Below are positions 13,644-48,230 of a DNA stretch of 64,000 nt, one piece after another (position 1 is the first letter of the stretch; each line of letters starts with the position of its first letter). The translations under genes and the position numbers were made by a program. The DNA lies in contig DASTWV010000059.1 of the NCBI GenBank assembly GCA_035765775.1, forward strand, positions 186,001 through 250,000, in the 5' to 3' direction. The notes below the pieces were generated by a model, which did not search any database, was not told the origin of the DNA, and worked only from the letters and a program-made list of their open reading frames with translations. This DNA comes from Actinomycetota bacterium (lineage in GTDB: Bacteria; Actinomycetota; CADDZG01; JAHWKV01; JAOPZY01).

Positions 13644-13667
13644 GTTTTGGTCCGGTGGTTTCGGGTA
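13644..13667 (+). promoter_or_regulatory. Sigma-B/SigF-type promoter candidate for csbD
   Basis: GTTT (13644-13647), 15 bases and GGGTA (13663-13667) match the sigma-B/SigF pattern. It points at csbD, a classical sigma-B regulon member in Bacillus, whose ATG is 163 bp further on. It lies in the gap between the divergent formate dehydrogenase and csbD genes. Confidence 0.6.
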
Positions 13668-13830
13668 ACCACTTGGTAACAGATGTTTGCCGGAGGAATT
13701 GGAAGATATTGGCTGATGGATATCTCAGGGCGCCGGGCTGACGCCACCCCCAGCCACACCCGACAGATGCCGAAGCCGTCTTCACCTCCGGTGAGGACCG
13801 TGGAATTGGGGACCGTGAAAGGAGGGGGCC

Positions 13831-14004
13831 ATGGGCCTCGAAGACAAAGCCGAAGCCGGTATTGACAAGGCGAAGGGCAAGGCCAAAGAAGCGATCGGAA
13901 AGACCACCGACGACCGATCCATGGAAGCGGAGGGGCACATCGATCAGGCCAAGGGGGGCGCAAAGCAGGCCTGGGAGCATGTGAAGGATGCAGCCAAGGG
14001 CTGA
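13831..14004 (+). CDS. csbD: CsbD family general stress protein
   Basis: A 57-residue hydrophilic protein starting MGLEDKAEAGIDKAKGKAKEA and containing GHIDQAKGGAKQAWEHVKDA, the repeated amphipathic pattern of CsbD proteins. The family is strongly induced by general stress, with no known biochemical function. The start has a very strong site, GAAAGGAGG. It is followed within 60 bp by another tiny hydrophilic gene with the same type of ribosome binding site. Confidence 0.92.
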   Translation: MGLEDKAEAGIDKAKGKAKEAIGKTTDDRSMEAEGHIDQAKGGAKQAWEHVKDAAKG

Positions 14005-14066
14005 CCGGCCTGCGGTCACGACCAACAGATGGATCCCGGAGAGGATCCACGCGAAAGGAGCTCATC

Positions 14067-14264
14067 ATGAGCGAGAGCCCAGCGCATGTCCCTGGGGTTC
14101 CCAAAGGTGAGGAAACCGTGGAGCGTGAGGGCCGCGAGCCCGGGCGCTACCCGACCGGCAGCGATGACACCCCCGCCGGCCGCCCCCACGGGACATCGAC
14201 GGCCCGGGATGACACCGGGGTCGACCCCCAGGAGCCCGTCACGGGAGGCACTCCGAAGGGATAA
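14067..14264 (+). CDS. Small hydrophilic protein of unknown function
   Basis: 65 residues, rich in Gly, Pro, Thr, Glu and Asp, no hydrophobic core (MSESPAHVPGVPKGEE...); probably disordered. I do not recognise the family. It is supported by the strong ribosome binding site GCGAAAGGAG, eight bases before the ATG, by position just after csbD, and by a clear terminator 17 bp after the stop. Likely co-transcribed with csbD and stress-induced. Confidence 0.7.
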   Translation: MSESPAHVPGVPKGEETVEREGREPGRYPTGSDDTPAGRPHGTSTARDDTGVDPQEPVTGGTPKG

Positions 14265-14280
14265 GGAGAGAACTGCGCGA

Positions 14281-14317
14281 CACAAAGGGCCCGGTCTCCG
14301 GGCCCTTTGTTTTTTTG
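14281..14317 (+). terminator. Rho-independent terminator
   Basis: ACAAAGGGCCCGG and CCGGGCCCTTTGT form a 13-bp stem around a TCT loop, followed by seven T. It ends the csbD unit. Confidence 0.92.
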
Positions 14318-14348
14318 TCACTGGAGAGAACAGAAAGGATGCGCCGCG

Positions 14349-14501
14349 ATGAGTGATGAGGGCATCGAAGAGATGGAAGCTATTGCCGAGGAGATGAAGG
14401 AGGAGCAGGAAGAGATCCTGAAGCGCCTCGATCCGTACCACGGTCCCAATGCGGTGACCGGTCCCACCCGGGATGCAGGGGGGCCATCGGCAAACGCGTA
14501 A
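14349..14501 (+). CDS. Small acidic protein of unknown function
   Basis: 50 residues: an acidic, probably helical N-terminus (MSDEGIEEMEAIAEEMKEEQ) and a short Gly/Pro tail. AGAAAGGA lies nine bases before the ATG. No family recognised. It starts right after the terminator of the csbD unit, so it would need its own promoter or readthrough. Its 3' end overlaps the convergent PAP2 gene by ~120 bp, so one of the two ends may be mis-set. Confidence 0.5.
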   Translation: MSDEGIEEMEAIAEEMKEEQEEILKRLDPYHGPNAVTGPTRDAGGPSANA

Positions 14502-14982
14502 ACGGGGCGTCGGCCGCAGCGAACACCCGCCGGACCGCCAAATGGCAGCTGAGCCCGACTACCCAACCCGCCGCCACGTCGGTCAGGTAGTGCGAACGGC
14601 TGGCCACCAATGCCCCGTGCGACGCGAGGACCAGGGCGGCGAGCGGCGCCGCCAGGCGGGGGGTGGCCCTCATCACGCCGAGCGCGAATGCGAGCTGCGT
14701 CGCGGCGTGCCCAGAGGGGAACGACGACGTTAAGGGCGGATGGAGTCGCCGGCGTGCCGCCGGGGGCCGGGGGCGGCGGAACGCGGGCTTCAAGAGAAGG
14801 TTCGCCACGACAACCGCGAGAACTGCGCCGGATACACCGCACACGACGCCATCGATTGCCCGGTCGTCGCCCTCGCAGAGCACCAATGTCCCGAGGGCGA
14901 ACCAGGTGCGTGATTCCTGGAAGATCCGGCCGATCCTCACTGGCCAGGGCAGCGCTTGGCGCTCCGTGCTGGTCAGTCCCAT
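14380..14982 (-). CDS. PAP2-family phosphatase, membrane
   Basis: A 200-residue membrane protein with the acid-phosphatase signature: KPAFRRPRP (K-x6-RP), FPSGHAAT and RSHYLTDVAAGW. Substrates are usually lipid phosphates such as undecaprenyl pyrophosphate or phosphatidic acid. The Arg normally six residues before the His of the third motif appears to be Leu (ALVASRSH). The ATG at 14982 is preferred to a TTG at 15000. The C-terminal ~40 residues are polar and antisense to a small gene. Confidence 0.8.
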   Translation of the reverse strand: MGLTSTERQALPWPVRIGRIFQESRTWFALGTLVLCEGDDRAIDGVVCGVSGAVLAVVVANLLLKPAFRRPRPPAARRRLHPPLTSSFPSGHAATQLAFALGVMRATPRLAAPLAALVLASHGALVASRSHYLTDVAAGWVVGLSCHLAVRRVFAAADAPFTRLPMAPLHPGWDRSPHWDRGTDRGASGSLPAPPSSPRQ

Positions 14983-15102
14983 GCGCCGCTCACGCCCCAA
15001 TCAGTGCCGGCGCAACCGAAGGGTACCGAGCGGTTCGACGACGCGCAGCTGCCCGGCGGGCCGGAGAGGCCCCGCCGGGCAGGCACAGGTGAACTCGATG
15101 GC

Positions 15103-15321
15103 TTAGACGTCTTCCTCGATGACGGTCCTGTGCCGGCTGCCACCACCGAAGCCGCCCCAGCTGCTCCAGAAGACCAGCGAGAGGAGGGCGCCAATGATGC
15201 CCACGACCATCAGGATGACGCCGATAGTGTGGAGGTTAAAGCCTCGCGTATTGTTGACCGAGATGGCGAAGTCAAGGATCGCCCCGACTGCGATGAGGAA
15301 GATGCTGGTTCCCAGGCCCAT
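15103..15321 (-). CDS. DUF6458-type small membrane protein
   Basis: 72 residues with two hydrophobic helices (MGLGTSIFLIAVGAILDFAI and TIGVILMVVGIIGALLSLVF) and a Gly/Arg-rich tail, the arrangement of a small actinobacterial membrane protein family of unknown role. Start has GAAAGGAG at ideal distance. It lies 24 bp after the upstream flippase-like gene on the same strand. Confidence 0.8.
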   Translation of the reverse strand: MGLGTSIFLIAVGAILDFAISVNNTRGFNLHTIGVILMVVGIIGALLSLVFWSSWGGFGGGSRHRTVIEEDV

Positions 15322-15345
15322 GTCGTTCTCCTTTCAAGATGGCTT

Positions 15346-16455
15346 CTAGCTTGGCTTGGATCCATCCGTATGATTCCCATCTGGGGGCGTAGCAAATCCT
15401 TGGGCGTCCCGGATAACCGGTTTACGGCGCCCGAGGGCGACGTAGCATGCGGCGCCCACCGGGATCGGCAGCCAGAACTGCACCAGCCGGTAGGCCAGGA
15501 CCCCCAGCACGGCTATGCCCCGGGGGGACCCGAAGCCGACCAGGGTCGGGACCAGGATCCCCTCGACCACACCGAGCCCGCCCGGGGTCACCGGGATGGC
15601 CGCCAGGACATTGGCGATGCCATAGGCGACCAGAAGCCCATCCGGATTTTCGAAGTGCCCGAACGCCGCCAGGAAGATGTAGAGCGACGCGGCGTCCAAG
15701 ACCCAGTTCAGGCACGCCCATCCCAGGGCCCGCCTGAGGAGTGCGCGGTCATTCGTCAGCGTCTGGATGCGCCGGGCAAGGTCGTGGACGATGCGCTCCA
15801 TGTCGAAGCGCCGGACGTAGGGCAGCCTCCGTGCCAGTGCCCCCACCCACCGGGCGGCCCGGTCCTGGCCCCGGGTGAGCAGGACGACCGCGGCGGCGAA
15901 CAGGCCGATGGCGGCCCCGCCGACGGCGGCGGCGAGGCCATACAGCGGGTTGAACCCGCTCACCGGGATCGACACCACCAACGCCAGCCACAGGATGAGG
16001 TTGAGCACCACGGCCGAGCCCAGACCCTGCGTGGCGAGGACGAAGCCCGCCTCGGGGCCGGTCGCTCCCTCGCCGGTCAGCAGGCGGAAGCCCAGGGCCT
16101 CCCCACCCGCTGCCCCGCCGGGCAGGATGTGGCTGATGGCCAGGGTGGCCAGGTCGATGCGCCACACCCGGGAGAACCGGCCGACGCCCTTCGGCAGCAG
16201 GATCTGCGTGAGGCGGGCGTAGCTCGCCAGGCTCGCCGCCTGCAGGGCCACCCCGAGCAGCACGTAGCCCAGGTTCACCCGGCCCAGCAGGTGGACGGAC
16301 TTGTGGAGACCCACAATTTGCGGGAGGACCAGGTACTCCACCACGGCTGCCATCACCAGCACGAGGACCAGCCGGCGCACGGGGTGCCGGGAGATCACCC
16401 GGCGCCAGTACGGGGCCTTCGCCGACGGAGAGGAAGCGGACGGAGCGAGGGGCAT
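15346..16455 (-). CDS. Lysylphosphatidylglycerol synthase TM-like (UPF0104/YbhN) membrane protein
   Basis: 369 residues with about eight membrane helices; contains the conserved ISHILPGGAAGGEALGFRLL and IPVTPGGLGVVEGILVP. The family is the transmembrane half of lysyl-PG synthases and includes transport or lipid-flipping proteins of uncertain substrate. There is no catalytic synthase domain. Start 16455 (MPLAPSASS) follows from where similarity begins. A second paralogue sits at 50251-51357. Confidence 0.85.
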   Translation of the reverse strand: MPLAPSASSPSAKAPYWRRVISRHPVRRLVLVLVMAAVVEYLVLPQIVGLHKSVHLLGRVNLGYVLLGVALQAASLASYARLTQILLPKGVGRFSRVWRIDLATLAISHILPGGAAGGEALGFRLLTGEGATGPEAGFVLATQGLGSAVVLNLILWLALVVSIPVSGFNPLYGLAAAVGGAAIGLFAAAVVLLTRGQDRAARWVGALARRLPYVRRFDMERIVHDLARRIQTLTNDRALLRRALGWACLNWVLDAASLYIFLAAFGHFENPDGLLVAYGIANVLAAIPVTPGGLGVVEGILVPTLVGFGSPRGIAVLGVLAYRLVQFWLPIPVGAACYVALGRRKPVIRDAQGFATPPDGNHTDGSKPS

Positions 16456-16480
16456 ACCGCTTTCGTACCCCGCGCACGTC

Positions 16481-16505
16481 GTTTGGTGCGCAGGGCCACC
16501 GGGTA
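16481..16505 (+). promoter_or_regulatory. Sigma-B/SigF-type promoter candidate for the GH65 operon
   Basis: GTTT (16481-16484), 16 bases and GGGTA (16501-16505), pointing to the GH65 gene 227 bp downstream. The resulting long leader contains a three-fold repeated motif. Confidence 0.5.
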
Positions 16506-16731: not shown

Positions 16732-18936
16732 GTGCTGGAAACCGAAGAGTTCCCCCTCGGGCTCGCGCCCACCAAGGACCCGGCGTGGCTCGTGATCGTC
16801 GATGACGTCGAGGCCGCGCAGGAACCGGCCGTCGAGTCCTGGCTGACCGTGAGTAACGGGCGCTTCGCGGTGCGGGGGCTCCTGCCCGGCTCGGCGGGGA
16901 TCCCGCACCCTGCCTGCTTCGTGGCGGGGTTCTACGGCAACGCCGACGGCGATATCTCGTCCCTGGAACTCGTGCCATGCCCGGACGTGGCGAGCATCAG
17001 GGTCGCGCTCGAGCCCCCCTTCCCGCCCGCGGGGGGCCCGGCCCGGGGATGCCGGCGGATCCTGGACCTGGCGCAGGGCGTGCTCTTCACGACCCAGACC
17101 CTGCCCGGCGACCGGGCCCTCACGACCGTGCGCTTTGCCTCCATGGCGGAGCGCAGCCTGCTGGCCGTGGCGGCGCAGGTGCACGGGGACAGGCCGGCTG
17201 CCCTGTCCGCCCCGGTGTTCGTGCAGGCCGACTCGGTCCTGCGGTCCGCCGAGGTGCGCCGGACCGAGCAGGTCGACGTGCACCTCCACGGCCATGCCGA
17301 GCGCCAGGTCCACATGGCCGTGGCCACCCATGCCGAGCGGGACTCGCTGCACCGGGTGGCGGCGTTCCACCGCTCGTACGCCCCCCCGGAGGAGGCGGAT
17401 GCCGCGCGCTCGGCACTCGAGCACGCCCGGGGGGCCGGACTGGCCCGCGCTGCCCAGCACCACCGGGCCGCCGTCGCCGACCGCTGGCGGGATGCCGCGG
17501 TGGAGGTCGCGGGAGCCCCGGAGTTCCAGCGCGCGCTGAGTTTTGCGCTCTTCCACCTCATGTGCTCGGGGGACCCGGAGTGCGAGACCGCGTCGATCGG
17601 GGCCCGGGGGCTCACCGGCACCGGGTACCGGGGGCACGTGTTCTGGGACACCGACGTCTTCGTCGTGCCCTTCTTCACCTACACCCACCCGGCGACCGCC
17701 CGGGCACTGCTTGCCTACCGCTACCGGACCCTCGACGCGGCCCGGGAACGGGCAGGTGAGTACCGGGGCGCGCTCTTTCCCTGGGAAGGAGCGGATACCG
17801 GCGAGGACTGCACACCGGCGGTGATCCGCCTCCCGGACGGGACCGCCGTGGACGTGCTGACCGGCCAGCAGGAGATCCACATCTCGGCGGACGTCGCCTG
17901 GGCCGTCTGGCAGTACTGGCAGGTCACCGGCGACGACGGCTTCATGGCGGACATGGGCACCGAGCTGCTGGTGGAGACCGCCCGCTTCTGGGCCTCGCGG
18001 GCAACCGTGGGCGAGGACCGCCGGTACCACATCACCGGCGTCATCGGCCCGGACGAGTACCACGAGGAGGTGACCGACAACGCGTTCACCAATGTGATGG
18101 CGCGCCAGAACCTGCGCTGGGCCGCCGAGGCGGTCGCCTGGATGGCGAAGGCTCGGCCGGGAGGCTGGGAATCGCTGGCCGGCCGGCTGCGGTTCGAGAG
18201 CTCCGAGCTGGCGGGCTGGGAGGCGGTCGCCTCGGGCCTGGCCAGCGGGCTGCACACCTCCGGCCCGGAGGCCGGCCTCTACGAGGAGTTCGCCGGGTAC
18301 TTCGCCCTGGAAGACCTCCGGGCGGAGGACTTCGGCCGGCGGCCCTTCGCCGGTGAGCGGGTCCTGGGCACCAAGCGGTTGCGCCGGAGCCAGATCATCA
18401 AGCAGGCGGACGTGGTCATGCTGGCTCACCTCTTGCCCGGCGTGGTGCCCGTGGAGAGCGCCCGCACCAACTACCGGTACTACGAGCCCCGGACGGCGCA
18501 CGGCAGCTCGCTCTCGCCTGCCATCCACGCCGCCCTGGCCGCCCGCACCGGCGACCTCGCCTCGGCCATGGCCAATCTCGACCTGGCGGCGCGGGTCGAC
18601 TTGGACGACCGGATGGGCAACGCCTCGGAGGGGCTGCACCTGGCGGCAATGGGCGGCCTGTGGCAGGCGATGGTGTTCGGCTTCGGCGGGGTGGCGCCGG
18701 AGAGCGGGGGTCTGCGCCTGGATCCGGTGCTCCCTGAGCAGTGGGACCGGTTACGTTTCGCCCTCCGGTTCCGGGGCACCCGGGTTGCGGTCGAAGCCTC
18801 GGCCCGCGCCCTCACGGTGGACCTCGACGGCGACGCGGCGGTGGCCACGGGCAGCACGCCCCTCGCCCGGTTGGCGGCGGGCTCGTACCGGGCTGAGCGC
18901 ACCCCGGGCGCCGGCTGGTCGGAGCTCCGGCGATGA
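16732..18936 (+). CDS. Glycoside hydrolase family 65 disaccharide phosphorylase
   Basis: 734 residues with the GH65 layout: N-terminal beta-sandwich (1-~270), catalytic (alpha/alpha)6 barrel, small C-terminal sheet. GYRGHVFWDTDVFVVPFF, VIGPDEYHEEVTDNAFTN (catalytic acid Glu442) and TAHGSSLSP (phosphate site) are present. Family members split trehalose, maltose, kojibiose or nigerose with phosphate to beta-glucose-1-phosphate; the substrate cannot be told from sequence. Beta-phosphoglucomutase follows with a 4-bp ATGA overlap, a matching next step; mycobacteria have the same pair (Rv3400/Rv3401). GTG start with GAAAGGA upstream. Confidence 0.9.
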   Translation: MLETEEFPLGLAPTKDPAWLVIVDDVEAAQEPAVESWLTVSNGRFAVRGLLPGSAGIPHPACFVAGFYGNADGDISSLELVPCPDVASIRVALEPPFPPAGGPARGCRRILDLAQGVLFTTQTLPGDRALTTVRFASMAERSLLAVAAQVHGDRPAALSAPVFVQADSVLRSAEVRRTEQVDVHLHGHAERQVHMAVATHAERDSLHRVAAFHRSYAPPEEADAARSALEHARGAGLARAAQHHRAAVADRWRDAAVEVAGAPEFQRALSFALFHLMCSGDPECETASIGARGLTGTGYRGHVFWDTDVFVVPFFTYTHPATARALLAYRYRTLDAARERAGEYRGALFPWEGADTGEDCTPAVIRLPDGTAVDVLTGQQEIHISADVAWAVWQYWQVTGDDGFMADMGTELLVETARFWASRATVGEDRRYHITGVIGPDEYHEEVTDNAFTNVMARQNLRWAAEAVAWMAKARPGGWESLAGRLRFESSELAGWEAVASGLASGLHTSGPEAGLYEEFAGYFALEDLRAEDFGRRPFAGERVLGTKRLRRSQIIKQADVVMLAHLLPGVVPVESARTNYRYYEPRTAHGSSLSPAIHAALAARTGDLASAMANLDLAARVDLDDRMGNASEGLHLAAMGGLWQAMVFGFGGVAPESGGLRLDPVLPEQWDRLRFALRFRGTRVAVEASARALTVDLDGDAAVATGSTPLARLAAGSYRAERTPGAGWSELRR

Positions 18937-19682
18937 CGCCGCCACCGGAGCGGACCGAGCCAGCGCTCCCCCTCGGCCGCCTGGACGCCTGCATCTTCGA
19001 CATGGACGGCGTCGTCACCGACACCGCCCGGACCCACTTCGCCGCCTGGAAGCGGATGTTCGATGCCTTCCTGGAAGACGCCGAACCGTTCACCAAGCAG
19101 GACTACCTGCTCTACGTGGACGGCAAGACCCGGTACGAGGGGGCCGAAAGCTTCCTGCAGGCCCGGGGGGTGTCCCTGCCCTGGGGTTCGCCGCAGGATG
19201 CGCCGGGCACCCCGACGGTGTGTGGGCTGGCCAACCGCAAGGATGCCTACTTCATCGATCAGGTGAGGAGCGCCGGCGTGGACCGCTACGAGTCCACCGT
19301 TGCCCTCCTGCACCGACTGCGGGCGAGCGGCCGGAAGACCGCCGTCGTGTCCGCCAGCCGCAACGCCACCGAGGTGCTGACCGCGGCCCGGGTCCTTGAT
19401 CTGTTCGACGCCAAGGTGGACGGCGTGGATGCCGACACACTCGGCCTCGCCAGCAAGCCCGACCCCGCCCTCTTCCTGGAAGCCTGCCGCCGGCTGGACC
19501 TGCCGCCCGGCCGGGCCGCGGTATTCGAAGATGCCCTGGCCGGCGTCGCCGCCGGGCGCCGGGGGGAGTTCGGCTTTGTGGTGGGGCTCGACCGGGCGGG
19601 ACAGGCCGTTGCCCTCCGGGAGGCGGGGGCCGACGTGGTCGTGCCCGACATCGAACAACTGAACGTGGACGCCGGGACCTGA
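18933..19682 (+). CDS. pgmB: Beta-phosphoglucomutase-like HAD hydrolase
   Basis: 249 residues; HAD motif I FDMDGVVTDT with nucleophile Asp23 and Asp25, motif II VVSAS, motif III KPDPALFLEA, motif IV VFEDALAGVAAG. Converts beta-glucose-1-phosphate from the GH65 enzyme to glucose-6-phosphate. Start overlaps the GH65 stop (ATGA), giving translational coupling. The longer cap region with TPTVCGLANRKD is typical of the actinobacterial type. Confidence 0.9.
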   Translation: MTPPPERTEPALPLGRLDACIFDMDGVVTDTARTHFAAWKRMFDAFLEDAEPFTKQDYLLYVDGKTRYEGAESFLQARGVSLPWGSPQDAPGTPTVCGLANRKDAYFIDQVRSAGVDRYESTVALLHRLRASGRKTAVVSASRNATEVLTAARVLDLFDAKVDGVDADTLGLASKPDPALFLEACRRLDLPPGRAAVFEDALAGVAAGRRGEFGFVVGLDRAGQAVALREAGADVVVPDIEQLNVDAGT

Positions 19683-22782: not shown

Positions 22783-23448
22783 CTACGAGCCCGCCGGCTT
22801 GGACGACTGCCGGGACGAACCGGCAGGCTGGGCGTTGCCCGGCTCGTAAGGCTCCGCCTCGGGGAGGGCGTCCAGAGCCCGGCCCTTGGTCTCCTCGACC
22901 AGCTCGCCGACGCCCTCCTTCACGATCTCGCCCATCCGCTCGGCGACGTAGCCCAGGTCCTCGAGACCGACCTTCTCCACGCCCTCGCGGAGCTTGCCCG
23001 CCGCGACGTCGATGCCGGCACCGACCGTCCCCTGCACCCGGCTGCTGGCCACCTCGGCGGCGGCCTCCAGGTGCTGGCGGATGTCGGGGTCGTCGCGCAC
23101 TTCCTCGGCCACCCGAACGATCATCTGCTTGAGGTCGTCACCATCCGGGAGGATCTCCTGGAGGCGGTGGGCCGCGTCGAGGAACTCCTGCTTGACCTGG
23201 TCAGGGTCGGGGAGCACCTGCTTGGCCTGCTCGACCGCCCCGCCCACGGCCGACTTGACGGCGTCGCCGTCGGGAAGCACCTGCCTGGCCTGCTCGACCG
23301 CACCGTTCACGGCCGACTTGACGGCGTCGCGGTCGGGGATCGCCTCCTTGAGCTGTGCGCCCGCCGCGCTGACGCGGTCCTTGACGCCCGTCTCCGCCAC
23401 CTGCTGCTCGGACGGGAGGTACTGCGTGGTTTGGTTCTCGGTAGCCAT
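22783..23448 (-). CDS. Hydrophilic protein with four 21-residue repeats
   Basis: 221 residues. After a polar start (MATENQTTQYLPSEQ) come four tandem 21-residue units beginning LPDGDAVKSAVGGAVEQAKQV (first unit IPDRDAVK, last LPDGDDLK), then an amphipathic helical region with EEVRDDPDIRQHLEAAAEVAS and a polar tail. Sequence suggests long amphipathic helices, as in LEA-like desiccation or membrane-surface proteins; no known family. AAGGAGGATGAG precedes the ATG. Last gene of a three-gene unit with a coiled-coil and a holin-like protein. Confidence 0.75.
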   Translation of the reverse strand: MATENQTTQYLPSEQQVAETGVKDRVSAAGAQLKEAIPDRDAVKSAVNGAVEQARQVLPDGDAVKSAVGGAVEQAKQVLPDPDQVKQEFLDAAHRLQEILPDGDDLKQMIVRVAEEVRDDPDIRQHLEAAAEVASSRVQGTVGAGIDVAAGKLREGVEKVGLEDLGYVAERMGEIVKEGVGELVEETKGRALDALPEAEPYEPGNAQPAGSSRQSSKPAGS

Positions 23449-23522
23449 CTCATCCTCCTTTTGCCGCTCCGGTTCCTGGCCTTTCGCTTCCTTATCCACC
23501 CTTTGCATCCACCGTTTCCGGG

Positions 23523-23924
23523 TTACGAGCCGCCTTCCTGCTCGAGCACGGCCTGCGCTCCTGCTTCCTTGACATTCGCAATGCGCTCGGCGACCGCTGC
23601 CTCCAGATCTCGGGCCCGCTCCACCGCGATCTCCTGGACGTCCGCGGCCTTGGCACCTACCCCGGCGGCCACCCGGTGGGCAGCGGAGTGGATCTCCTCC
23701 CGGCTGGGCAGCTTGTCGACCAGACTCGCGACCAGCTCGTCCTTCTTCTCCTCGGCCTTCTCGAGGAGAAGATCGGCCTTCTGCTGGGCCACGGCGATCG
23801 CTTCTTGTTTCGCATGCGCCTTCTTGTATGCCAACTGCTCCACCGCGGCCGCCAAGCGCTGCTCGGTCTGCTGCACCGCCTGCACCTGGGCCTCGATGGC
23901 CGCCCCGTCATCTTTCTCGCTCAT
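23523..23924 (-). CDS. Coiled-coil protein of unknown function
   Basis: 133 residues, Ala/Glu/Lys/Gln-rich with continuous heptad-like helices (IEAQVQAVQQTEQRLAAAVE, then LLLEKAEEKKDELVASLVD). No membrane segment, no motif. GAGGAGGGG precedes the ATG. It lies between the holin-like and repeat protein genes with gaps of 9 and 74 bp. Phasin- or LEA-like behaviour is possible, unproven. Confidence 0.75.
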   Translation of the reverse strand: MSEKDDGAAIEAQVQAVQQTEQRLAAAVEQLAYKKAHAKQEAIAVAQQKADLLLEKAEEKKDELVASLVDKLPSREEIHSAAHRVAAGVGAKAADVQEIAVERARDLEAAVAERIANVKEAGAQAVLEQEGGS

Positions 23925-23933
23925 TGCCCCTCC

Positions 23934-24458
23934 TCAGGCCTGCCCTCGGCGCCACGCTCGGCTCAGCTGCCCGCCCAGCGATCCCAGGGTCCGTACGGTT
24001 TGTTCCGGCATCAGCGGCGTTGCACTCCGGACACCGGCACGGCCCGCGATGGCGAAGCACCCGGCGATGACTGCGTAGACGACGCCGACAATCAGAGCCG
24101 CCAGCCAGGCCGGCAAAACCAGCGCCAATCCCAGGATCGCCGCCGCGCTGAAGGCGGCAATGGCGAAGAGCACGGTGATGCCGGCGGCCCCGAGGAGGCC
24201 GGCTCCTTTGCCGGCCTGTTTGGCCTTGGTGGTCATCTCCGTCTTGGCAAGCTGCAACTCCTGGGTGAACAGCTGCTTCGATGCTTGGGCAGCCTCACTC
24301 AAGACCTCGGGTAACGGCGGTTCGGACCGGACGTGCGCCATCAGGGGGACAGTGCCCGGATCGCCATTCGACCCGCCATTCACCCCCGCATTCAATGCCG
24401 GGCCGCCGTTCAGCCGTTGGCGGCTTTGCGCTTCCAGCCGCTGGTATCGCTCGCGCAC
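23934..24458 (-). CDS. Phage holin_3_6-like/actinobacterial holin-X membrane protein
   Basis: 174 residues: a polar N-terminus, an amphipathic stretch ASKQLFTQELQLAKTEMTTKAK and two hydrophobic helices (GITVLFAIAAFSAAAILGLA, LAALIVGVVYAVIAGCFAIA) plus a basic tail. This matches the phage_holin_3_6 family, common in actinobacteria outside phages. GTG at 24458 has AGGAGG six bases upstream; a TTG six bases earlier is less likely. A second member is at 28669-29079. Confidence 0.8.
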   Translation of the reverse strand: MRERYQRLEAQSRQRLNGGPALNAGVNGGSNGDPGTVPLMAHVRSEPPLPEVLSEAAQASKQLFTQELQLAKTEMTTKAKQAGKGAGLLGAAGITVLFAIAAFSAAAILGLALVLPAWLAALIVGVVYAVIAGCFAIAGRAGVRSATPLMPEQTVRTLGSLGGQLSRAWRRGQA

Positions 24459-24582
24459 GGTCAACCTCCTTACTACTTCCAGATTTAGATGACCCGCCTA
24501 CCCGGTGGCAATCCCCCGCCAGGCAGAGCCGTTCCCTCACTGGAGGTCTTCCCAGCGGCTGTGGAGTTCAACCGCCTAATAC

Positions 24583-27830: not shown

Positions 27831-27880
27831 GGTATGCCTCCTTGTGCCGGGTCTTTTCGGGATTAATCCTTCCCCGCAGG

Positions 27881-27928
27881 CATGCAGGCAAACCCATGCA
27901 GGCAAAACCCGGAAACAAGCAGACAAAC
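27881..27928 (-). promoter_or_regulatory. Tandem ATGCAGGCAAACCC repeat and imperfect sigma-B-type promoter
   Basis: ATGCAGGCAAACCC occurs at 27882-27895 and again (with one extra A) at 27896-27910. Just beyond, on the minus strand, GTTT (27928-27925), 14 bases and GGGTT (27910-27906) resemble GTTT-N14-GGGTA with one mismatch. It points to the gene starting at 27830. Confidence 0.4.
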
Positions 27929-27946: not shown

Positions 27947-28234
27947 TTACTTGCCTTTGCCGCCGTGCGCCAGTTCGCGCCAGCTCTTCTCGCCGACCTC
28001 GACGTCGAACTTCTTGGCCGCGGCCAGGATCCGCTTCCAGGCCCGGTCCCGGTCGGCGTCACTGACGCCCTTCACCTGGTTGAAGCGGGCGATGGCGTTG
28101 CGGACATGCGAGGCGTCGTTCAGGGGCTCCTTGCGCTCGTCGGGGAAGGCGAAGGTGTCGTCGCCCATTTCTTCCCTCTCCTCAGTGCTCAGACCTTCGG
28201 ACTCGTGCTGCGACTTGTGCTTGCTCGTGGCCAT
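27947..28234 (-). CDS. DUF6582-like protein
   Basis: 95 residues, charged; the C-terminal half HVRNAIARFNQVKGVSDADRDRAWKRI-type segment followed by AAAKKFDVEV is the hallmark of a small actinobacterial family of unknown function. The start has GAAAGGAGG. The 120 bp upstream contains a doubled CGCGGAGTGTCC and three TACCC, no clear promoter. Confidence 0.8.
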   Translation of the reverse strand: MATSKHKSQHESEGLSTEEREEMGDDTFAFPDERKEPLNDASHVRNAIARFNQVKGVSDADRDRAWKRILAAAKKFDVEVGEKSWRELAHGGKGK

Positions 28235-28354
28235 GGGGGCGCCTCCTTTCCGTACCCGTGTCCTACCCTGACCGCGTACCCGGCCCAGCCGGAGATATAC
28301 GTCGGCGAGGTGCGGCCGCGGAGTGTCCCGCGGAGTGTCCCAGAGAGGGGCTGG

Positions 28355-28705
28355 CTACTTGGCCGCGGCCGGGTGCTCCTTGGCCTTGTCGACCAGCTGG
28401 CGCAGGAGGATGGGCACCGCGGCCCCCACGCCCGCCTTCACCGCGGCGAGGAGCAGCTTGTGCGAGAGCGGCTCCGGGATGTGGCCGGCCTTCACCGCCG
28501 AGTCGATCGCCTTGGAGCGCTTCCGGTGGCGCCCCACCGTCACGAGGACGCCCAGGGTGACCCCGAAGGCCCCCACCCCGAGCACGACGGGCAGCACGGA
28601 CTTGGAAGAGCTCTGCAGCGTCTTCCGCAGCCCGGCGACCCGGGTGCTCATGTCCGCCCGCACCGCCGCTATCTCGGCGAGGGTTTGATCTGGTCTTTCG
28701 CCCAT
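28355..28705 (-). CDS. DUF3618-like small membrane protein
   Basis: 116 residues: a polar N-terminal helix (TLAEIAAVRADMSTRVAGLR) as in DUF3618, one membrane helix (VLPVVLGVGAFGVTLGVLVTV) and a second hydrophobic stretch near residue 95. Function unknown. It overlaps the end of the preceding holin-like gene by 37 bp, which with 29079-29234 makes a tight three-gene unit. Confidence 0.7.
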   Translation of the reverse strand: MGERPDQTLAEIAAVRADMSTRVAGLRKTLQSSSKSVLPVVLGVGAFGVTLGVLVTVGRHRKRSKAIDSAVKAGHIPEPLSHKLLLAAVKAGVGAAVPILLRQLVDKAKEHPAAAK

Positions 28706-29079
28706 TCCAAGTCATCCTTCAGGGATTGCAGCGTCCGCCGGGGGGCTTTGATGTCCAGCCGGGATTTGCCCACGAGCACCAGGATAGTTCCCGCCAGGAG
28801 CCAGAAGATCGTGACGATCCCCGCCACCAGCGATGGGTGGCCCAGGGCCACGATCAGCCAGACCTGCCCGAGGATGAAGAACAGCAGGGCGCAGAAGCCT
28901 CCTGCGGCCATCATCCCGATGGCCACGCCGTTGCGCTTGGCGAGACCGATCGCCTCCTGCTTCGCCAGCTCGATCTCGAGGTGGACCAGGCGCACGACGT
29001 CGGTGGCCAGCCCGGAGAGCGAGGTCTGCACCTCCTCGGCGGCGGCCTCGGCGTGGGAGACGAACCGGGGCAGGCGCAT
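28669..29079 (-). CDS. Phage holin_3_6-like membrane protein
   Basis: 136 residues: an amphipathic lead VRLVHLEIELAKQEAIGLAKR and two membrane helices (IGMMAAGGFCALLFFILGQ, LVAGIVTIFWLLAGTILVLV), the phage_holin_3_6 pattern. Its ATG at 29079 shares one base with the stop of the preceding gene (TGATG). Second copy of the type at 23934-24458. Family role is unknown; no lysis genes are near. Confidence 0.8.
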   Translation of the reverse strand: MRLPRFVSHAEAAAEEVQTSLSGLATDVVRLVHLEIELAKQEAIGLAKRNGVAIGMMAAGGFCALLFFILGQVWLIVALGHPSLVAGIVTIFWLLAGTILVLVGKSRLDIKAPRRTLQSLKDDLEWAKDQIKPSPR

Positions 29080-29234
29080 CAGGCGCCCGGAGGCCCTTCG
29101 GACCCGGGCGTGCCCGGGGGAGAGGGCGGGGCGGGCTGGCGTTGCGGGTCCGTTGGTTGTTCCACGTCCGGCTCTTCCATTGGCTGGTCGCCACTTCCGG
29201 GGGTGTCGGTCTCGTGCTGGGGCGCTGTGCTCAC
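29079..29234 (-). CDS. Small Pro/Glu-rich protein of unknown function
   Basis: 51 residues (MSTAPQHETDTPGSGDQPMEE then P- and G-rich), no hydrophobic part. GTG at 29234 with GAGAAAGGA upstream. First gene of the unit with the holin-like and DUF3618-like genes, behind a sigma-B/SigF-type promoter 41 bp upstream. Longer starts in this open frame have no support. Confidence 0.65.
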   Translation of the reverse strand: MSTAPQHETDTPGSGDQPMEEPDVEQPTDPQRQPAPPSPPGTPGSEGPPGA

Positions 29235-29274: not shown

Positions 29275-29298
29275 TACCCGGGCATCTCCCCCGCAAAC
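29275..29298 (-). promoter_or_regulatory. Sigma-B/SigF-type promoter candidate (minus strand)
   Basis: GTTT (29298-29295), 15 bases and GGGTA (29279-29275), 41 bp before the GTG of the small protein/holin-like unit. A second one faces away 23 bp further on. Confidence 0.65.
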
Positions 29299-29320: not shown

Positions 29321-29345
29321 GTTTGACGGGCCCCTTCAGAGGGTA
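29321..29345 (+). promoter_or_regulatory. Sigma-B/SigF-type promoter candidate (plus strand)
   Basis: GTTT (29321-29324), 16 bases and GGGTA (29341-29345), 49 bp before the GTG of the zinc-ribbon gene. With the minus-strand site it makes a divergent pair in a 159-bp gap. Confidence 0.65.
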
Positions 29346-34103: not shown

Positions 34104-34130
34104 TACCCGGGAGGAAGGGCGCGTCAAACC
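34104..34130 (-). promoter_or_regulatory. Sigma-B/SigF-type promoter candidate (minus strand)
   Basis: GGTTT (34130-34126), 17 bases and GGGTA (34108-34104), upstream of the disordered protein gene (GTG 34021). Upstream edge is 23 bp from the end of the CYTH-CHAD gene. Confidence 0.6.
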
Positions 34131-34152: not shown

Positions 34153-35718
34153 TTACCCAGAACTCGCCTTCGTAAACTTCCGCCACGCCTTCCGGGCATC
34201 GTCCCAGGGCTCCTGCCAGACCTCGCGGGCGCGCTGGCGCTCCTCGACTGCAGCGGCGATCAGCTCGCCGGCCGCCAGGCTGGCTCCCTCCTTCAGCCGC
34301 TTCTGTGCCCGCAGCCATTCCTCACGTACCCCGGCGTCGTGGAGTCGACCGAGGACGTCCTGCAGGTCCTCGGCCCTGCGGCCCAGCTTCGCGGCGCGCT
34401 TGGCGGTGGTCCCGCGCAGGGCGGGCGCCGCCCGCTCAGCGGCGTAGCGCAGGTGCTTGGCCCGCTTGCGGAGCTCGTGGAGCGCCTCGTCTCGGGGAAC
34501 CTCCGGCAAGCTGCCGGCCTGCGCCCGCATCCGCTTCCATTGGCGGCGCATGAGGGCGGGCAGGACGTCGTGCACTTCGGCGCCCTCGTCCCGCACCAGT
34601 TCGGGGGCGAGCGCGGCTGACGAGAGGGCGTCCAGCAGGTCCAGGTAAGCCTCGCCGTCCATCTCGGCCCGCAGGCGCGCGACGGCGGCGGTGCGCTCGC
34701 GCACCAGGCGGTTCAGGAGCGAGCCGGCGGCTGCCCCGTCGGCCAGCTCCAGCTCGGCCAGCGCATCCTGCAGCCCGGCGACCATCACATCGGTGTCCCG
34801 CACCGCCCCGAGCGCCTGGCCGAGCCGCTTGAGGCCATCGCTCAGGCGACGCTCCCAGTCGGGCTCCAGCTCCGGCCGGAAGAGGCGCAGCTCGGAGCGG
34901 AGCCGGCGGGCGGCGACCCGGGCCTGGTGCACGTGCTCGACGTCGCCCCCCAGCCGGATGCCGATGTCGTGGGCGATAAGCGTCCGGAGGCCGTCGCCGA
35001 GGCACATCCGGACCGCCTCGCCGACCGTTGACCGGGGCCCCAAGCGGACGGGGCTGTTGGCCCGCCGGCCCGCCGGCGGCGCGCCCAGGGCACGGCCCAG
35101 CTTGGTCCCACTCTGCTCCGCCGAGGCCCCCGCGGCCTGCAACCGCTCGACGGCGGCCTCCAACGTGCGGGTGGTCGAGGAATCGGTGATCTCAACCTCG
35201 ATCTCCCGGAAGACCCGGCCATCGCCCGGCCCGCCGTGCACGGTCACGACGTCGTCGTCCAGCTCGGCCGCCGGCAGCCCGTCGGCGCCCATGAGGGCGA
35301 AGCGCTGCCGCCGGGTCTGGAGCTCGGCCACCGGTCCCAGCACCGCCCGGCGCACCCGCGCCCGGGTGAGGGAGATGGCCTCGGCCGGGATCGCGCCCGC
35401 CGGTTCCTCCCAGGTCAACTCGGAGCGCTGGAGCGCCAGGCCGCCGGCCTGCCCGGGTAGCTTGAGGGTCCAGGTGCCCGGAGAGCCTGCCGGGGCCTCC
35501 GGCTCCCGCCGGTGGCGCAGGGTGATCCCGGCAGCCAGGAGGGTAAGGTCGGGCGTGTCGAAGTAGGTGGCGTGGAGGACGGCGTCGGGCATGGCCACCA
35601 CCCCGGCCACCCCGGGCAGGTCGCGCAGGTCGGGCATGGCGAAGAGGGGGTCGACGCGGAGCTTGGCCTCGATCTCGGTGTGGGAATGGGCCGGGCGGGC
35701 AACGTCAGTGGCGGGCAT
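34153..35718 (-). CDS. CYTH-CHAD domain protein
   Basis: 521 residues. Residues ~10-200 form a CYTH triphosphate tunnel domain with TEIEAKLRV (ExExK), TYFDTPDLTLLAAGITLRHR, and LKLPG. Residues ~230-510 form a CHAD domain with repeated His-helices (HVHQARVAARRLRSELRLF, ALHELRKRAKHLRYAAE). Such proteins bind or cleave polyphosphate or nucleoside triphosphates. GAAAGGAGG precedes ATG 35718. It follows the YihY gene by 79 bp, likely the same transcript. Confidence 0.92.
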   Translation of the reverse strand: MPATDVARPAHSHTEIEAKLRVDPLFAMPDLRDLPGVAGVVAMPDAVLHATYFDTPDLTLLAAGITLRHRREPEAPAGSPGTWTLKLPGQAGGLALQRSELTWEEPAGAIPAEAISLTRARVRRAVLGPVAELQTRRQRFALMGADGLPAAELDDDVVTVHGGPGDGRVFREIEVEITDSSTTRTLEAAVERLQAAGASAEQSGTKLGRALGAPPAGRRANSPVRLGPRSTVGEAVRMCLGDGLRTLIAHDIGIRLGGDVEHVHQARVAARRLRSELRLFRPELEPDWERRLSDGLKRLGQALGAVRDTDVMVAGLQDALAELELADGAAAGSLLNRLVRERTAAVARLRAEMDGEAYLDLLDALSSAALAPELVRDEGAEVHDVLPALMRRQWKRMRAQAGSLPEVPRDEALHELRKRAKHLRYAAERAAPALRGTTAKRAAKLGRRAEDLQDVLGRLHDAGVREEWLRAQKRLKEGASLAAGELIAAAVEERQRAREVWQEPWDDARKAWRKFTKASSG

Positions 35719-35797: not shown

Positions 35798-36817
35798 TCA
35801 GCCTGGGGAGCCCGCCCGGGGCGGGGCGGACGGCGTCCGGGGACGGCCACCCGGAGCCGGGCGGAAATGCACCTTGATCGACTCGCCGGCCCGGCGCTGC
35901 TGCTTGGTCGCCTGCTCGGCCTCGGCCCGCTCGTCTGCCTCGGTGGGCGGGCTGGTCAGGCTCCTCGGCCACAGGTTGCGCACCCGCACCACGTTGATCT
36001 CGGCCCCGTAGAAGGTGAGCTGGGCACCCAGGTAGATCCACGAGAGCAGGGCAATGACGGTGGCGAAGGCGCCGTAGGTCTTGCCCGCATTGTTGAGGAC
36101 GTGGGTCACGTAGAAGCCGCCGACCACCTGGAGGACCGTCAGGGCCACCCCGGCGGCCAGGGCGCCCGGGAGGACGTCGGACCAGGAGAGGTCCGCCTTG
36201 GGCAGGACCCGGAACGCGAAGAGAACCACAGCGGTGTTGACGGCCAGCGAGGCGATGGGGGCCACCAGGCGCAGGCCGGGGACCACCGTTCCCCCGGCCG
36301 CCACCAGCCCGGACAGGCCGACGGCCACGAGGCTGGCGACGCCCAGGATGCCGAGCATCATCACGGCCTGGGCCCGGGCGAGCAGGGCACCGGGGCGATC
36401 GGCGATGGGGACCTCCCACACCTCGTTCATGCCGTACTGCAGCGCCTGCATCACGGCGGTGCCGGCGAGGAGCGTGAAGATGATGCCGGCCGCCAGGCCG
36501 AGCCCGCTGCCGTGGATTTGGTGGACGTCGGTGGTCCCGATGATCGGGATGTGGCGGAGCACCTGGGAGACGAGCTTGTGTGACGCCTGCCCGCCGAGGA
36601 TGAACCCGAGCACCGTGACGAAGACCAGCAGGAGGGGGAACAGGGAAAAGAATCCGTAGTAGGCGACCAGCGAAGCCAGGTACCCGGCGTTGTCGTCACC
36701 GAACTTCTTGGCCACCGCGAAGGGAAAGGCCACGGCCGGCCGCTCCCGCTGGAACACGTCGAAGGCGTGCAGCCAGCGCTGGAACAGGGCTTTGGCGTCC
36801 CCGACTAGCCCCGCCAT
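35798..36817 (-). CDS. YihY/UPF0761-family membrane protein
   Basis: 339 residues with six or more membrane helices; GYLASLVAYYGFFSLFPLLLVFVTVLGF and GMNEVWEVP, plus KTYGAFATVIALLSWIYLGAQLTFYGAEIN, are typical. Formerly called RNase BN, now regarded as of unknown role. Basic tail after helix six. GGGAGGGAG precedes ATG 36817. Confidence 0.9.
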   Translation of the reverse strand: MAGLVGDAKALFQRWLHAFDVFQRERPAVAFPFAVAKKFGDDNAGYLASLVAYYGFFSLFPLLLVFVTVLGFILGGQASHKLVSQVLRHIPIIGTTDVHQIHGSGLGLAAGIIFTLLAGTAVMQALQYGMNEVWEVPIADRPGALLARAQAVMMLGILGVASLVAVGLSGLVAAGGTVVPGLRLVAPIASLAVNTAVVLFAFRVLPKADLSWSDVLPGALAAGVALTVLQVVGGFYVTHVLNNAGKTYGAFATVIALLSWIYLGAQLTFYGAEINVVRVRNLWPRSLTSPPTEADERAEAEQATKQQRRAGESIKVHFRPAPGGRPRTPSAPPRAGSPG

Positions 36818-37020: not shown

Positions 37021-37044
37021 TACCCGCGCCCCAAGGGCGCAAAC
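37021..37044 (-). promoter_or_regulatory. Sigma-B/SigF-type promoter candidate for the YihY/CYTH-CHAD unit
   Basis: GTTT (37044-37041), 15 bases and GGGTA (37025-37021) pointing at the YihY gene 204 bp downstream. The remaining part of the 269-bp gap shows no other feature I recognise. Confidence 0.5.
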
Positions 37045-45356: not shown

Positions 45357-45745
45357 GCGTAGTGCCCCGGGAGGTGGCAGGCGAAGACCCAGGTGATGGG
45401 GTTGGACGGGAAGCTGACCGTCGTGGACCGGGTGGTGCCGGCGGGCACCGAGACCTCGCCCGGGACCGACCCGTCGTGCACGGTGTCGGTGCCGGCCTCC
45501 TCGGCCTGCTGCAGGGCCTCGTTGCCCACGATGAACTCGTGGTCGATGGGGTCGGTGTTGGTGATGACGAAGCGCACCGTCGATCCCTCCTTCACCGTCA
45601 CCGCCGACGGTGAGAAGCGGGAGTAGTGGATGGCGATGGCCACGGTGGGGACCGGCTGGGGGCCGATGACCCCGGCGTGGGCGGCGGCCCCCAAAGAGGC
45701 CAGGACGACGACCAGACCGATCCCCGCCCCGTGGCGCAGTCTCAT
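45320..45745 (-). CDS. Cupredoxin-domain exported protein
   Basis: 141 residues: signal peptide (GIGLVVVLASLGAAAHAG), then a cupredoxin fold with DHEFIVG (His ligand) and FACHLPGHYAYGM (Cys, His, Met ligands), so a type 1 copper site. Electron carrier or copper protein outside the membrane. ATG 45745 overlaps the stop of the DUF2330 gene (ATGA). Confidence 0.85.
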   Translation of the reverse strand: MRLRHGAGIGLVVVLASLGAAAHAGVIGPQPVPTVAIAIHYSRFSPSAVTVKEGSTVRFVITNTDPIDHEFIVGNEALQQAEEAGTDTVHDGSVPGEVSVPAGTTRSTTVSFPSNPITWVFACHLPGHYAYGMRGLIAITS

Positions 45746-46872
45746 GCCGGCAGCCCGGGGACCCGAAGGCTGCGCCGCCAGCTCCAGCCCCACGCCGCCG
45801 CCAGGCCGGCAGCGCCCAGGGCGCTGGCCCACCAGACCCACGCCGAGCCGCCGCCCGAGGGCGGGGTGGGGGTGGACGGCGCCGGGTTGGACGCCAGCCC
45901 GGCGGCCCGGGCGGACGGGGCCACCCCGTTGACCCCCACCGAGAGGTCGTAGCGCAGGTTGACCTCGGGGGTGCTCAGCCGCAGGTAGGTGAGCCACATG
46001 CCCGACGCCGGGATCCACGACCCGCCCTGGTCCTCCCGCAGGTCGCTGATGAGGCTGGCCGACGCCTGCTCGCTGGTGTTGAGCACGAGGCCGTTGGTCG
46101 AGGTGCGGTTGGACCTGAGCGGCGTCGGGTCGGGCAGCATCGCCGGGGCCTGGTCGGTGAGCAGGTAGATGTCGGCGCTGACGAAGTCGGACTGCGTCTT
46201 GCCCAGGCCCAGGATGGCCAGGGGCACCCAGGGCTGCTTCGTGGGGATGGTCAGGGCGATGGGCGTGATGGCGCCGGCCTGCTGACCCTGGGCGGCGGCG
46301 GCATCGGCATTGAACTTGGCGGCCATGAAGATGGGCGACCGGTGGGCGTAGAAGTCGAGCAGGGCCGGCGCGTCGGGCGGCAGGCTGAACCCGTTGTTCT
46401 TGGCCCATTCGCCGACGGCGAAGCCGCCGCCCTTGAGGACCGTGAGGTCGAGGGCCCCGATGGTGGTCTGCTGGATGACCTGGGCAGGCACCGGAGCCGC
46501 TGCGGCGGCGGCGCGGCCGGCGGTGTCGAAGGCGGCGTTGATCGGCTCGGTCTCGCGCACGAGGCGCTGCAGGGTCCAGGCGCCGCCCTTCTCGATGGCG
46601 GTCGGCACCGCGGGCAACGGCGTGATCGAGCCGAAGTTGCCCGTCCCGCCCTCGAAGGTGAAGGCGGTGATGTAGTGCTCGACGCCGTTGTGGTAGCCCA
46701 CCAGGGTTGTGGTGCGCTGGAGGCTCACGCCCCCGTTGGGGCCGATCAGCCCCCCGCAGGCCAGGGCGGGCCCCGCCCCGATCAGCACCAGCAGGCCGAG
46801 GGCGCTGCCGACCGCCAGCACCCGAATGGTGGTTGTGGCGCTCCGCCTGCGGCTCCGCTGGTTGAGTCCCAT
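45742..46872 (-). CDS. DUF2330 exported membrane-anchored protein
   Basis: 376 residues: signal peptide (RVLAVGSALGLLVLIGAG) cut before ACGG, a long extracytoplasmic DUF2330 domain (ACGGLIGPNGG, YHNGVEHYITAFTFEGG, FGSITPLP, WVPLAILGLGK) and a C-terminal Pro-rich linker plus membrane helix (WVWWASALGAAGLAAAWGWS). Function unknown. Translationally coupled to the cupredoxin, so the two probably act together. Confidence 0.85.
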   Translation of the reverse strand: MGLNQRSRRRSATTTIRVLAVGSALGLLVLIGAGPALACGGLIGPNGGVSLQRTTTLVGYHNGVEHYITAFTFEGGTGNFGSITPLPAVPTAIEKGGAWTLQRLVRETEPINAAFDTAGRAAAAAAPVPAQVIQQTTIGALDLTVLKGGGFAVGEWAKNNGFSLPPDAPALLDFYAHRSPIFMAAKFNADAAAAQGQQAGAITPIALTIPTKQPWVPLAILGLGKTQSDFVSADIYLLTDQAPAMLPDPTPLRSNRTSTNGLVLNTSEQASASLISDLREDQGGSWIPASGMWLTYLRLSTPEVNLRYDLSVGVNGVAPSARAAGLASNPAPSTPTPPSGGGSAWVWWASALGAAGLAAAWGWSWRRSLRVPGLPA

Positions 46873-46947
46873 CTCTGGCCTCCCTGTCTGGCACGTGTCG
46901 GGGAACGTGATGAGGCTTAGACGGGGCCGTGCCGGGCGAAAGTTCCG

Positions 46948-47751
46948 TCAGGACGCGGCGGCGGCCTTCTGGAGGGCGGCGCCGAAGGTGCGGGCGACAA
47001 GGGCATAGCCGGCGTCCGAGGGGTGGAACCCGTCGGCGCTGACCAGCGAGGCGTAGGTGCCGTCCTTCTCGGCCTCCGCTCCGGCGGCGTGCAGGTCGAC
47101 GAGGATGGCGCCGGTTGAGGCCACCACCGCCGAGGTCGCCCGGTTGTAGGCGTCGACCGACGCGTCCAGGGCCGCCGGGGCCGGGCAGAGGCTCCCGGTG
47201 CCCAACCCGAAGGACCCGGAGCGGCAGGCGAGGTAGATCGGCAGCTGGTCCAGCGGCGGCGTGTTGGCCACCAGCACCGTCGTGCCCCCCTTCTGGCGCA
47301 GCTGCGAGATCAGGGACTGGAGCTCGTGCTGGTAGTCGGCGGGCGTCACGCTGGCAATGAGGTCGTTCACGTTGAGCCACACCGTGACCAGGGTCGGGTG
47401 GGCGGCCAGCGCCTGGGACAGCTGGTCCTGCAGGGCATCCTCGACGGTGGCGCCGGACACCGCCACGTTGTCGAAGGTCGCCGAGTGGGGCAGGAAGCCC
47501 CGAGCGAAGACCGCCGGCCAGGCGTCCTGGGCCGGATCGCTGCTGCCGACGCCCAGCGACTCGCTCGCCCCGATGGCTACGTAGACCACCGGGCCGGTAG
47601 AGGGCGCCGGCGAGCGGGCGGGCGACGAAGCGGGCGAGGGGGCCGCGCGGCTGGGGGCCGCGGGTGCCGCCGCCCGGTGCCCGGAGGAGCACGCACCGAG
47701 CACCACCAGCGCGGCGCCCGCAAGGCGTCTCCACCGCCGGCCAGCGCGCAT
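46948..47751 (-). CDS. SGNH/GDSL-type lipoprotein hydrolase
   Basis: 267 residues: lipoprotein signal with lipobox LGAC (Cys21), Ala/Pro linker, then SGNH blocks YVAIGASESLG (Ser), VWLNVNDL (Asn) and SADGFHPSDAGYALVA (Asp, His). An esterase anchored to the outer face of the membrane; substrate unknown. ATG 47751. Confidence 0.85.
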   Translation of the reverse strand: MRAGRRWRRLAGAALVVLGACSSGHRAAAPAAPSRAAPSPASSPARSPAPSTGPVVYVAIGASESLGVGSSDPAQDAWPAVFARGFLPHSATFDNVAVSGATVEDALQDQLSQALAAHPTLVTVWLNVNDLIASVTPADYQHELQSLISQLRQKGGTTVLVANTPPLDQLPIYLACRSGSFGLGTGSLCPAPAALDASVDAYNRATSAVVASTGAILVDLHAAGAEAEKDGTYASLVSADGFHPSDAGYALVARTFGAALQKAAAAS

Positions 47752-47852
47752 GATCCCCGAATCTACCCGGGCCGCCCGGGGGCGCCGCCCAAGTGCCGCC
47801 AGAAGGGCGGCCCCATCGGGTGCTAGGTTTCTCCAGGCACCCCTCGCCCGCC

Positions 47853-47858
47853 TATACT
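47853..47858 (+). promoter_or_regulatory. -10 element of a near-leaderless transcript
   Basis: TATACT lies eight bases before the GTG at 47867, the spacing seen for leaderless actinobacterial mRNAs; no Shine-Dalgarno is present. Confidence 0.5.
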
Positions 47859-47866
47859 TCCCGCCG

Positions 47867-48175
47867 GTGAGTGCCCTCCTGCAGGTCGTCCGCACGGGCC
47901 AGCCCCGAACGATCCGGCTGGTGGGGGAACTGGATGCCTCGAACGCCGACGACCTCCTCATCGACTTGGATCCCGAGCTGGCGTCGGGCGGCGACTTGAC
48001 GCTGGACCTCGGCGCCTTGGACTTCATCGACAGCGTGGGCCTGCGCAGTTTCGTGCGGGTGGCCCACGCCCTCGACGGCGGCCGCCTGATCCTGCGGGAA
48101 CCGCAACCCGGTGTCGGCCGCACGCTGGATATCGTTGGGATTGACAAGACAAACAATATTTTCGTCACAAAATGA
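47867..48175 (+). CDS. STAS-domain anti-sigma factor antagonist
   Basis: 102 residues: RTIRLVGELDASNADDL and LDLGALDFIDSVGLRSF, with Ser56 in the DSVGL site that is phosphorylated in RsbV/SpoIIAA-type proteins. It would bind and neutralise the anti-sigma factor when unphosphorylated. The RsbW-like gene follows 65 bp later. Start is probably leaderless. Confidence 0.88.
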   Translation: MSALLQVVRTGQPRTIRLVGELDASNADDLLIDLDPELASGGDLTLDLGALDFIDSVGLRSFVRVAHALDGGRLILREPQPGVGRTLDIVGIDKTNNIFVTK

Positions 48176-48205
48176 CGTGCTTGTAGGTCTTGCGATCACA
48201 TAAAG

Positions 48206-48230
48206 GTTTGTTCATCTCTTCCGATGGGTA
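48206..48230 (+). promoter_or_regulatory. Sigma-B/SigF-type promoter candidate for the RsbW-like gene
   Basis: GTTT (48206-48209, as GGTTT), 16 bases and GGGTA (48226-48230), ten bases before the GTG at 48241. An anti-sigma kinase under the sigma it controls gives a feedback loop, as known for sigma-B operons. Confidence 0.65.

Follow-up and report, generated by a model that had tools for sequence, protein, structure and literature searches.

A predicted SigB/SigF-type stress regulon clustered in a 64-kb stretch of an uncultured actinobacterial genome

In Mycobacterium smegmatis, the measured consensus of SigF promoters is GTTT-N14-19-GGGTA (PMC4694148). Several of these promoters lie only 3 to 11 nt before the start codon, many targets are grouped closely around MSMEG_1758-1804, and a type I topoisomerase, a hemerythrin HHE protein and an RsbW homologue are among the genes controlled (PMC4694148, PMC7693655). 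In the same species RsbW1 is the anti-sigma factor and RsbW2 a kinase, and RsbW3 is a SigF-dependent booster expressed from a GTTT-N17-GGGTAA promoter (PMC7693655). Streptomyces coelicolor has nine SigB homologues with overlapping targets, which share a class of promoters with a GTTT-like -35 box and a GGGTA/T-like -10 box (PMC8346170). As for Bacillus subtilis, its SigB promoters are given as GTTTAA-N12-14-GGGA/TAA/T (quoted in PMC8346170), and CsbD is cited as SigB-dependent in PMC6828939, with reference to Pragai and Harwood 2002.

In the present work we analyzed a 64-kb stretch of DNA (hereafter the window) from an uncultured actinobacterial lineage, in which GTTT-N15-17-GGGTA sites in front of genes had been proposed to reveal a stress regulon of the SigB/SigF type. 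The concentration of sites in gaps, the presence of one SigB/F/G factor and the conservation of site-gene pairs all argue for this proposal, in which dependence on sigma is predicted. We estimate at about 90% the probability that the sites are promoters for the single SigB/SigF/SigG-type sigma factor of the genome, and that the island is transcribed together. It resembles the M. smegmatis SigF regulon in its promoter boxes, its near-leaderless members, its clustering and an RsbW homologue as target, but differs from it in that island and sigma factor are on different contigs. Moreover, CsbD, holin-X, YihY, CYTH-CHAD, DUF6582 and several unnamed small proteins are island members not named in PMC4694148, which makes no mention of CsbD, holin, YihY or CHAD. 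The promoter class is also that of the S. coelicolor SigB homologues, although only one factor exceeds the family cut-off here. Compared to B. subtilis SigB, the spacer of N15-17 counted from GTTT corresponds to N13-15 after a six-base -35 box; the phylum is different, and so are the targets, largely, except CsbD. The promoter type, the clustering of the regulon and the presence of an RsbW gene among its targets are all known already, with precedents in M. smegmatis SigF; the island adds one more example of a regulon of known kind, in a little-studied lineage. For this lineage, the promoters, sigma factor and targets of a general stress regulon can now be predicted, and several unnamed small proteins gain a testable context.

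Exact sites in the window and in the genome

Eight exact matches to GTTT-N15-17-GGGTA are present on the two strands of the window (Table 1). All seven sites of the original prediction are among them, each pointing at a gene and with coordinates that were correct but for a single base (34129 in place of 34130); one site is additional. Every exact site faces a gene with correct box spacing. Two of them, at 29275-29298(-) and 29321-29345(+), are back to back, and the additional site, 34154-34177(-), lies 24 nt upstream of 34104-34129 and overlaps the last codons of the CYTH-CHAD gene.

Table 1. Exact sites and genes of the predicted regulon and its surroundings (positions in the window)
Feature	Position	Strand	Remarks
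Exact site, GTTT-N15-GGGTA	13644..13667	+	Predicted promoter of csbD unit
csbD, 57 aa	13831..14004	+	PF05532, 57.7 bits (Pfam cut-off 40)
Small hydrophilic protein, 65 aa (called PAHV)	14067..14264	+	Second ORF of csbD unit
Exact site, GTTT-N16-GGGTA	16481..16505	+	Upstream of GH65
GH65 family glycoside hydrolase/phosphorylase	16732..18936	+	PF03632, 370.6 bits
HAD hydrolase	18933..19682	+	After GH65
Small acidic protein, 84 aa	27576..27830	-	Two variant sites upstream
DUF6582 protein	27947..28234	-	PF20223, 78.6 bits
Further small protein	28355..28663	-	After holin-X, same unit (29234 to 28355)
Holin-X superfamily III membrane protein	28669..29079	-	PF07332, 77.7 bits
Small disordered protein, 51 aa	29079..29234	-	First gene of holin-X unit
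Exact site, GTTT-N15-GGGTA	29275..29298	-	Predicted promoter of small protein + holin-X unit
Exact site, GTTT-N16-GGGTA	29321..29345	+	Upstream of zinc-ribbon ORF
Protein with two CxxC pairs (zinc ribbon), 57 aa	29394..29567	+	Single gene, then terminator-like hairpin
Hydrophilic, probably disordered protein, 157 aa	33548..34021	-	Two tandem exact sites upstream
Exact site, GTTT-N17-GGGTA	34104..34129	-	Proximal predicted promoter, disordered-protein gene
Exact site, GTTT-N15-GGGTA	34154..34177	-	Distal second copy, disordered-protein gene
CYTH-CHAD protein	34153..35718	-	Downstream of YihY; PF05235, 170.8 bits; PF01928, 43.8 bits
YihY/BrkB membrane protein	35798..36817	-	PF03631, 134.2 bits
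Exact site, GTTT-N15-GGGTA	37021..37044	-	Upstream of YihY and CYTH-CHAD
STAS-domain (anti-sigma antagonist-like) protein	47867..48175	+	PF01740, 58.1 bits; just upstream of RsbW-like gene
Exact site, GTTT-N16-GGGTA	48206..48230	+	10 nt before RsbW-like start codon; near-leaderless
RsbW-like ATPase, 202 aa	48241..48849	+	PF13581, 61.5 bits (cut-off 27.4)

Fewer than one chance match had been estimated for the 64 kb, and dinucleotide shuffling agrees, with 0.07 matches for the whole window and a maximum of 1 in 100 shuffles. The noncoding part (12,108 b, 69% GC) holds seven exact sites, compared to a mean of 0.049 and a maximum of 1 in 1000 segment-wise shuffles, and 79 letter-permuted motif controls had 0.19 matches there on average. 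The sole permuted control to reach four matches, TTTG...GGGTA, is readily explained, because it reads the same sites one base further on. With up to one mismatch allowed, 17 sites fall in the 12.1 kb of noncoding DNA versus 4 in the 51.8 kb of coding DNA (odds ratio 18, p = 1.4e-9), such sites being 18 times denser in the former. Within the window, the count of intergenic versus coding hits proposed along with the original prediction is strongly in favor of gaps.

The genome scan proposed at the same time was less clear-cut. The genome comprises 3.60 Mb in 62 contigs, and genes outside the window were called with a simple ORF caller based on codon-position GC. There are 26 exact matches genome-wide versus 14 for the reversed control; with so small an excess, many of the matches outside the window are probably due to chance. 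Eight of the 26 reside in the 64 kb, that is, 1.8% of the genome (clustering p = 1e-8). Location relative to ORFs is not discriminating: with the simple caller, 24 of the 26 exact matches and 10 of the 14 reversed-control matches are outside called ORFs (p = 0.16), and we dropped this position as a genome-wide test since the reversed pattern is also mostly found there. The cluster in the window is thus real, but outside the island the pattern alone does not define a regulon.

The sigma factor and the RsbW-like proteins

A SigB/SigF-type factor, on whose existence the proposal depended, is indeed encoded in the genome: a single protein exceeds the curated cut-off of the SigB/F/G family (TIGR02980, 283 bits for a cut-off of 234.35). 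Its gene (C50:43662-44327) and flanks are on a contig other than that of the window. The closest solved relatives of the protein are the sigma chain 8x6g_H and the SpoIIAC-type 1l0o_C, and it is 83% identical to its counterpart in isolate RYN_267, the closest named relative, and 60 to 65% identical to those of Nitriliruptoria- and Euzebya-type MAGs. At least six other sigma-70-family factors of the genome match the SigBFG model weakly, and several further partial matches, ECF-like in look, occur in short frames.

Directly before the sigma gene lies an RsbW-like ORF of 140 aa; its match to PF13581 is weak (21 bits, below the cut-off), and 44 residues at its amino terminus match RsbW 6m36 with an E value of 4.5e-7. 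Another RsbW-like gene, divergent from this rsbW-sigma pair, starts 12 nt after an exact site; no exact site was found upstream of the rsbW-sigma operon itself. The same exact site precedes a STAS-RsbW pair at the sigma locus of RYN_267. In that isolate, the STAS gene separates the site from the divergent RsbW-like gene (L027 463-2184; L058 8578-10759), and it is absent at the corresponding place of the genome studied here. RYN_267 and the same-family genome used below (G001) are probably the same genome, since the site sequence is equal in both. The degenerate ATP motifs of the sigma-adjacent RsbW were not retained as a special trait, as the N-box Asn is missing from the sigma-adjacent RsbW-like proteins of nearly all named relatives examined.

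The RsbW-like protein of the window has an intact HATPase_c_2 domain, with N-box ELVAN and DHGHG, but stays under the NCBIfam equivalog cut-offs (29.6 versus 135 bits for SpoIIAB, 27 versus 145 for RsbW). The neighboring STAS protein scores 48 bits against TIGR00377, whose cut-off is 53. A CsbD homologue and the anti-sigma kinase itself had been announced among the targets; the former stands, and the identity of the latter is doubtful, given that another RsbW-like gene adjoins sigma on C50 and that the window protein is below the NCBIfam cut-offs.

Conservation in relatives and the reading of the sites

Comparison with related genomes provides the strongest support for the predicted regulon. 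An exact site precedes the CsbD gene at 11 of 29 relatives' loci, compared to 0 for five control patterns (p = 3e-4); ten were found in the 400 nt upstream, and the eleventh is in G044, where the locus was cut and the site lies 71 nt before the match by coordinates. Each of the eleven genomes also encodes a SigBFG-family factor scoring 225 bits or more. The CsbD-SigB link, experimental in Bacillus, is seen here at the sequence level in at least 11 other actinobacterial genomes from several families. A CsbD gene is present in 29 of 44 genomes with a SigBFG factor versus 1 of 17 without (p = 2.6e-5), and the site-to-control ratio is higher in genomes with the factor (p = 0.0018), both values being uncorrected for phylogeny or genome size. 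Motif enrichment across the whole genomes of relatives is only modest, with base composition and genome size as confounders.

Other site-gene pairs are kept in the same-family genome G001. The orthologue of the small protein at 29079-29234 retains an exact site upstream (L221), the homologue of the 84-aa acidic protein has the same variant, GTTT-N15-GGGAA, at the same place, and in front of the CYTH-CHAD homologue GTTT-N15-GGGAA occurs just before the gene start. Upstream of YihY, the site is exact in G054 and has one mismatch in G001. The closest G001 match to the disordered protein has no site at up to one mismatch. Neither of two families qualified as a target in general: exact sites were found at 0 of 30 top-scoring holin-X loci, where only the specific small-protein and holin unit is supported, and at 1 of 29 YihY loci. 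A matrix trained on the sites of relatives only gave its highest score in the window to GH65, which is followed at the top by the disordered protein, the holin unit, csbD, YihY and RsbW; DUF6582 and the zinc ribbon come shortly after these. For the zinc ribbon and GH65, the promoters are predicted from this matrix and from the window statistics, not from orthologous sites.

In an order-level relative (G005), seven of 28 exact sites are within 50 kb (p = 4e-7); clustering is consequently not unique to the genome studied. This seven-site cluster (G005:C2:60521-110206; L212-L214) covers topoisomerase IB as well as a spot adjacent to YihY. The gene for topoisomerase IB has exact sites upstream in three order-level relatives; it was nevertheless rejected as a target in the window, where it has no recognizable site.

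It is conceivable that the sites are chance matches, picked out by the reader in a GC-rich genome. Indeed, the pattern outnumbers its reversed control only about twofold across the genome, and some exact matches have no plausible downstream gene. The window, on the other hand, has eight sites for 0.07 expected, seven of them noncoding for 0.05, and neither the clustering nor the site-gene pairs conserved in relatives would be accounted for; with shuffles and permuted controls in agreement, we reject this reading as extremely improbable. The sites could also be real promoters read by another sigma-70-family or ECF factor, of which the genome has several that resemble the SigBFG model weakly or in part, and PMC8346170 documents cross-recognition among the SigB homologues of Streptomyces. 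We hold this to be quite unlikely, as a single factor exceeds the SigB/F/G cut-off, the boxes are those of the established SigB/F consensus (PMC4694148, PMC8346170), and an exact site is present at the locus of the C50 factor itself, in the genome studied and in a relative.

A further question, compatible with sigma-dependent promoters, is the role of the RsbW-like protein of the window. It keeps ELVAN and DHGHG, in sequence and alignment, and the sigma-adjacent RsbW-like proteins have neither the N-box Asn nor the DxGxG box, so that it could be a kinase or a feedback regulator. A tentative view, to which we give slightly less than an even chance, is that it acts in the same circuit as a feedback antagonist or kinase, comparable to RsbW3 or RsbW2 of M. 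smegmatis, and not as the anti-sigma factor. The division of roles among the three M. smegmatis proteins (PMC7693655) offers a precedent, and the gene adjoining sigma fails the HATPase cut-off; yet HATPase_c_2 matches are common, with 26 in the genome, and the closest G001 match to the window protein has no site at up to one mismatch.

Returning to promoters of the single SigB/SigF/SigG-type factor, the scheme that we infer, which covers sigma binding, the stress signal, partner switching and the feedback role of the window protein, would run as follows. The RsbW-like protein of the preceding gene would probably keep sigma inactive until stress, when partner switching with a STAS protein would probably free it. 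Once free, sigma would direct RNA polymerase to GTTT (-35) and GGGTA (-10), and the island of small hydrophilic, membrane and envelope genes would then be co-transcribed, yielding CsbD, holin-X, YihY, CYTH-CHAD, GH65 and a further RsbW-like regulator. Whether the island belongs to a SigB/F stress core conserved across Actinomycetota, made mostly of uncharacterized small hydrophilic proteins with CsbD as the most widespread, and in which genes can move between sigma-dependent units under the same control, appears to us evenly balanced.

Gene movement, variant sites and neighboring genes

The 65-aa protein PAHV belongs to the csbD unit here, its gene being followed on the 3' side by a terminator-like hairpin and a T run; in the same-family genome it has its own exact site (L014; L328), in front of an orthologue that is 78% identical. 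The place syntenic to the latter (C59:157880) still has the exact site, followed by the small membrane ORF, and lacks PAHV. Because the syntenic place retains site and next gene with PAHV sitting in the csbD unit, this arrangement suggests that PAHV was transferred from one sigma-dependent unit to another, either away from a promoter of its own and into the unit of csbD or in the opposite direction.

Some genes of the island are preceded by variant sites. These are GTTT-N15-GGGAA (27870-27893) and GTTT-N17-GGGTT (27891-27916) for the 84-aa acidic protein, and GTAT-N15-GGGTA (28277-28300(-), matrix p = 0.005) for the DUF6582 protein; a one-mismatch site also precedes a glycosyltransferase (31983). 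The 57-aa CxxC protein belongs to no Pfam or NCBIfam family over cut-off, and has no homologue among the relatives' sequences searched. Another holin-X gene of the window forms a unit with two charged proteins downstream, neither of which has a Pfam family over cut-off (22783-24464(-)); no exact site was recognizable for this unit. Finally, a formate dehydrogenase alpha subunit (10373-13453(-)) has one in-frame TGA at about 13019-13021, and since this TGA is single and in the context ARI-U-HSSTVPSLG, the gene very likely encodes a selenocysteine enzyme and is not a pseudogene.
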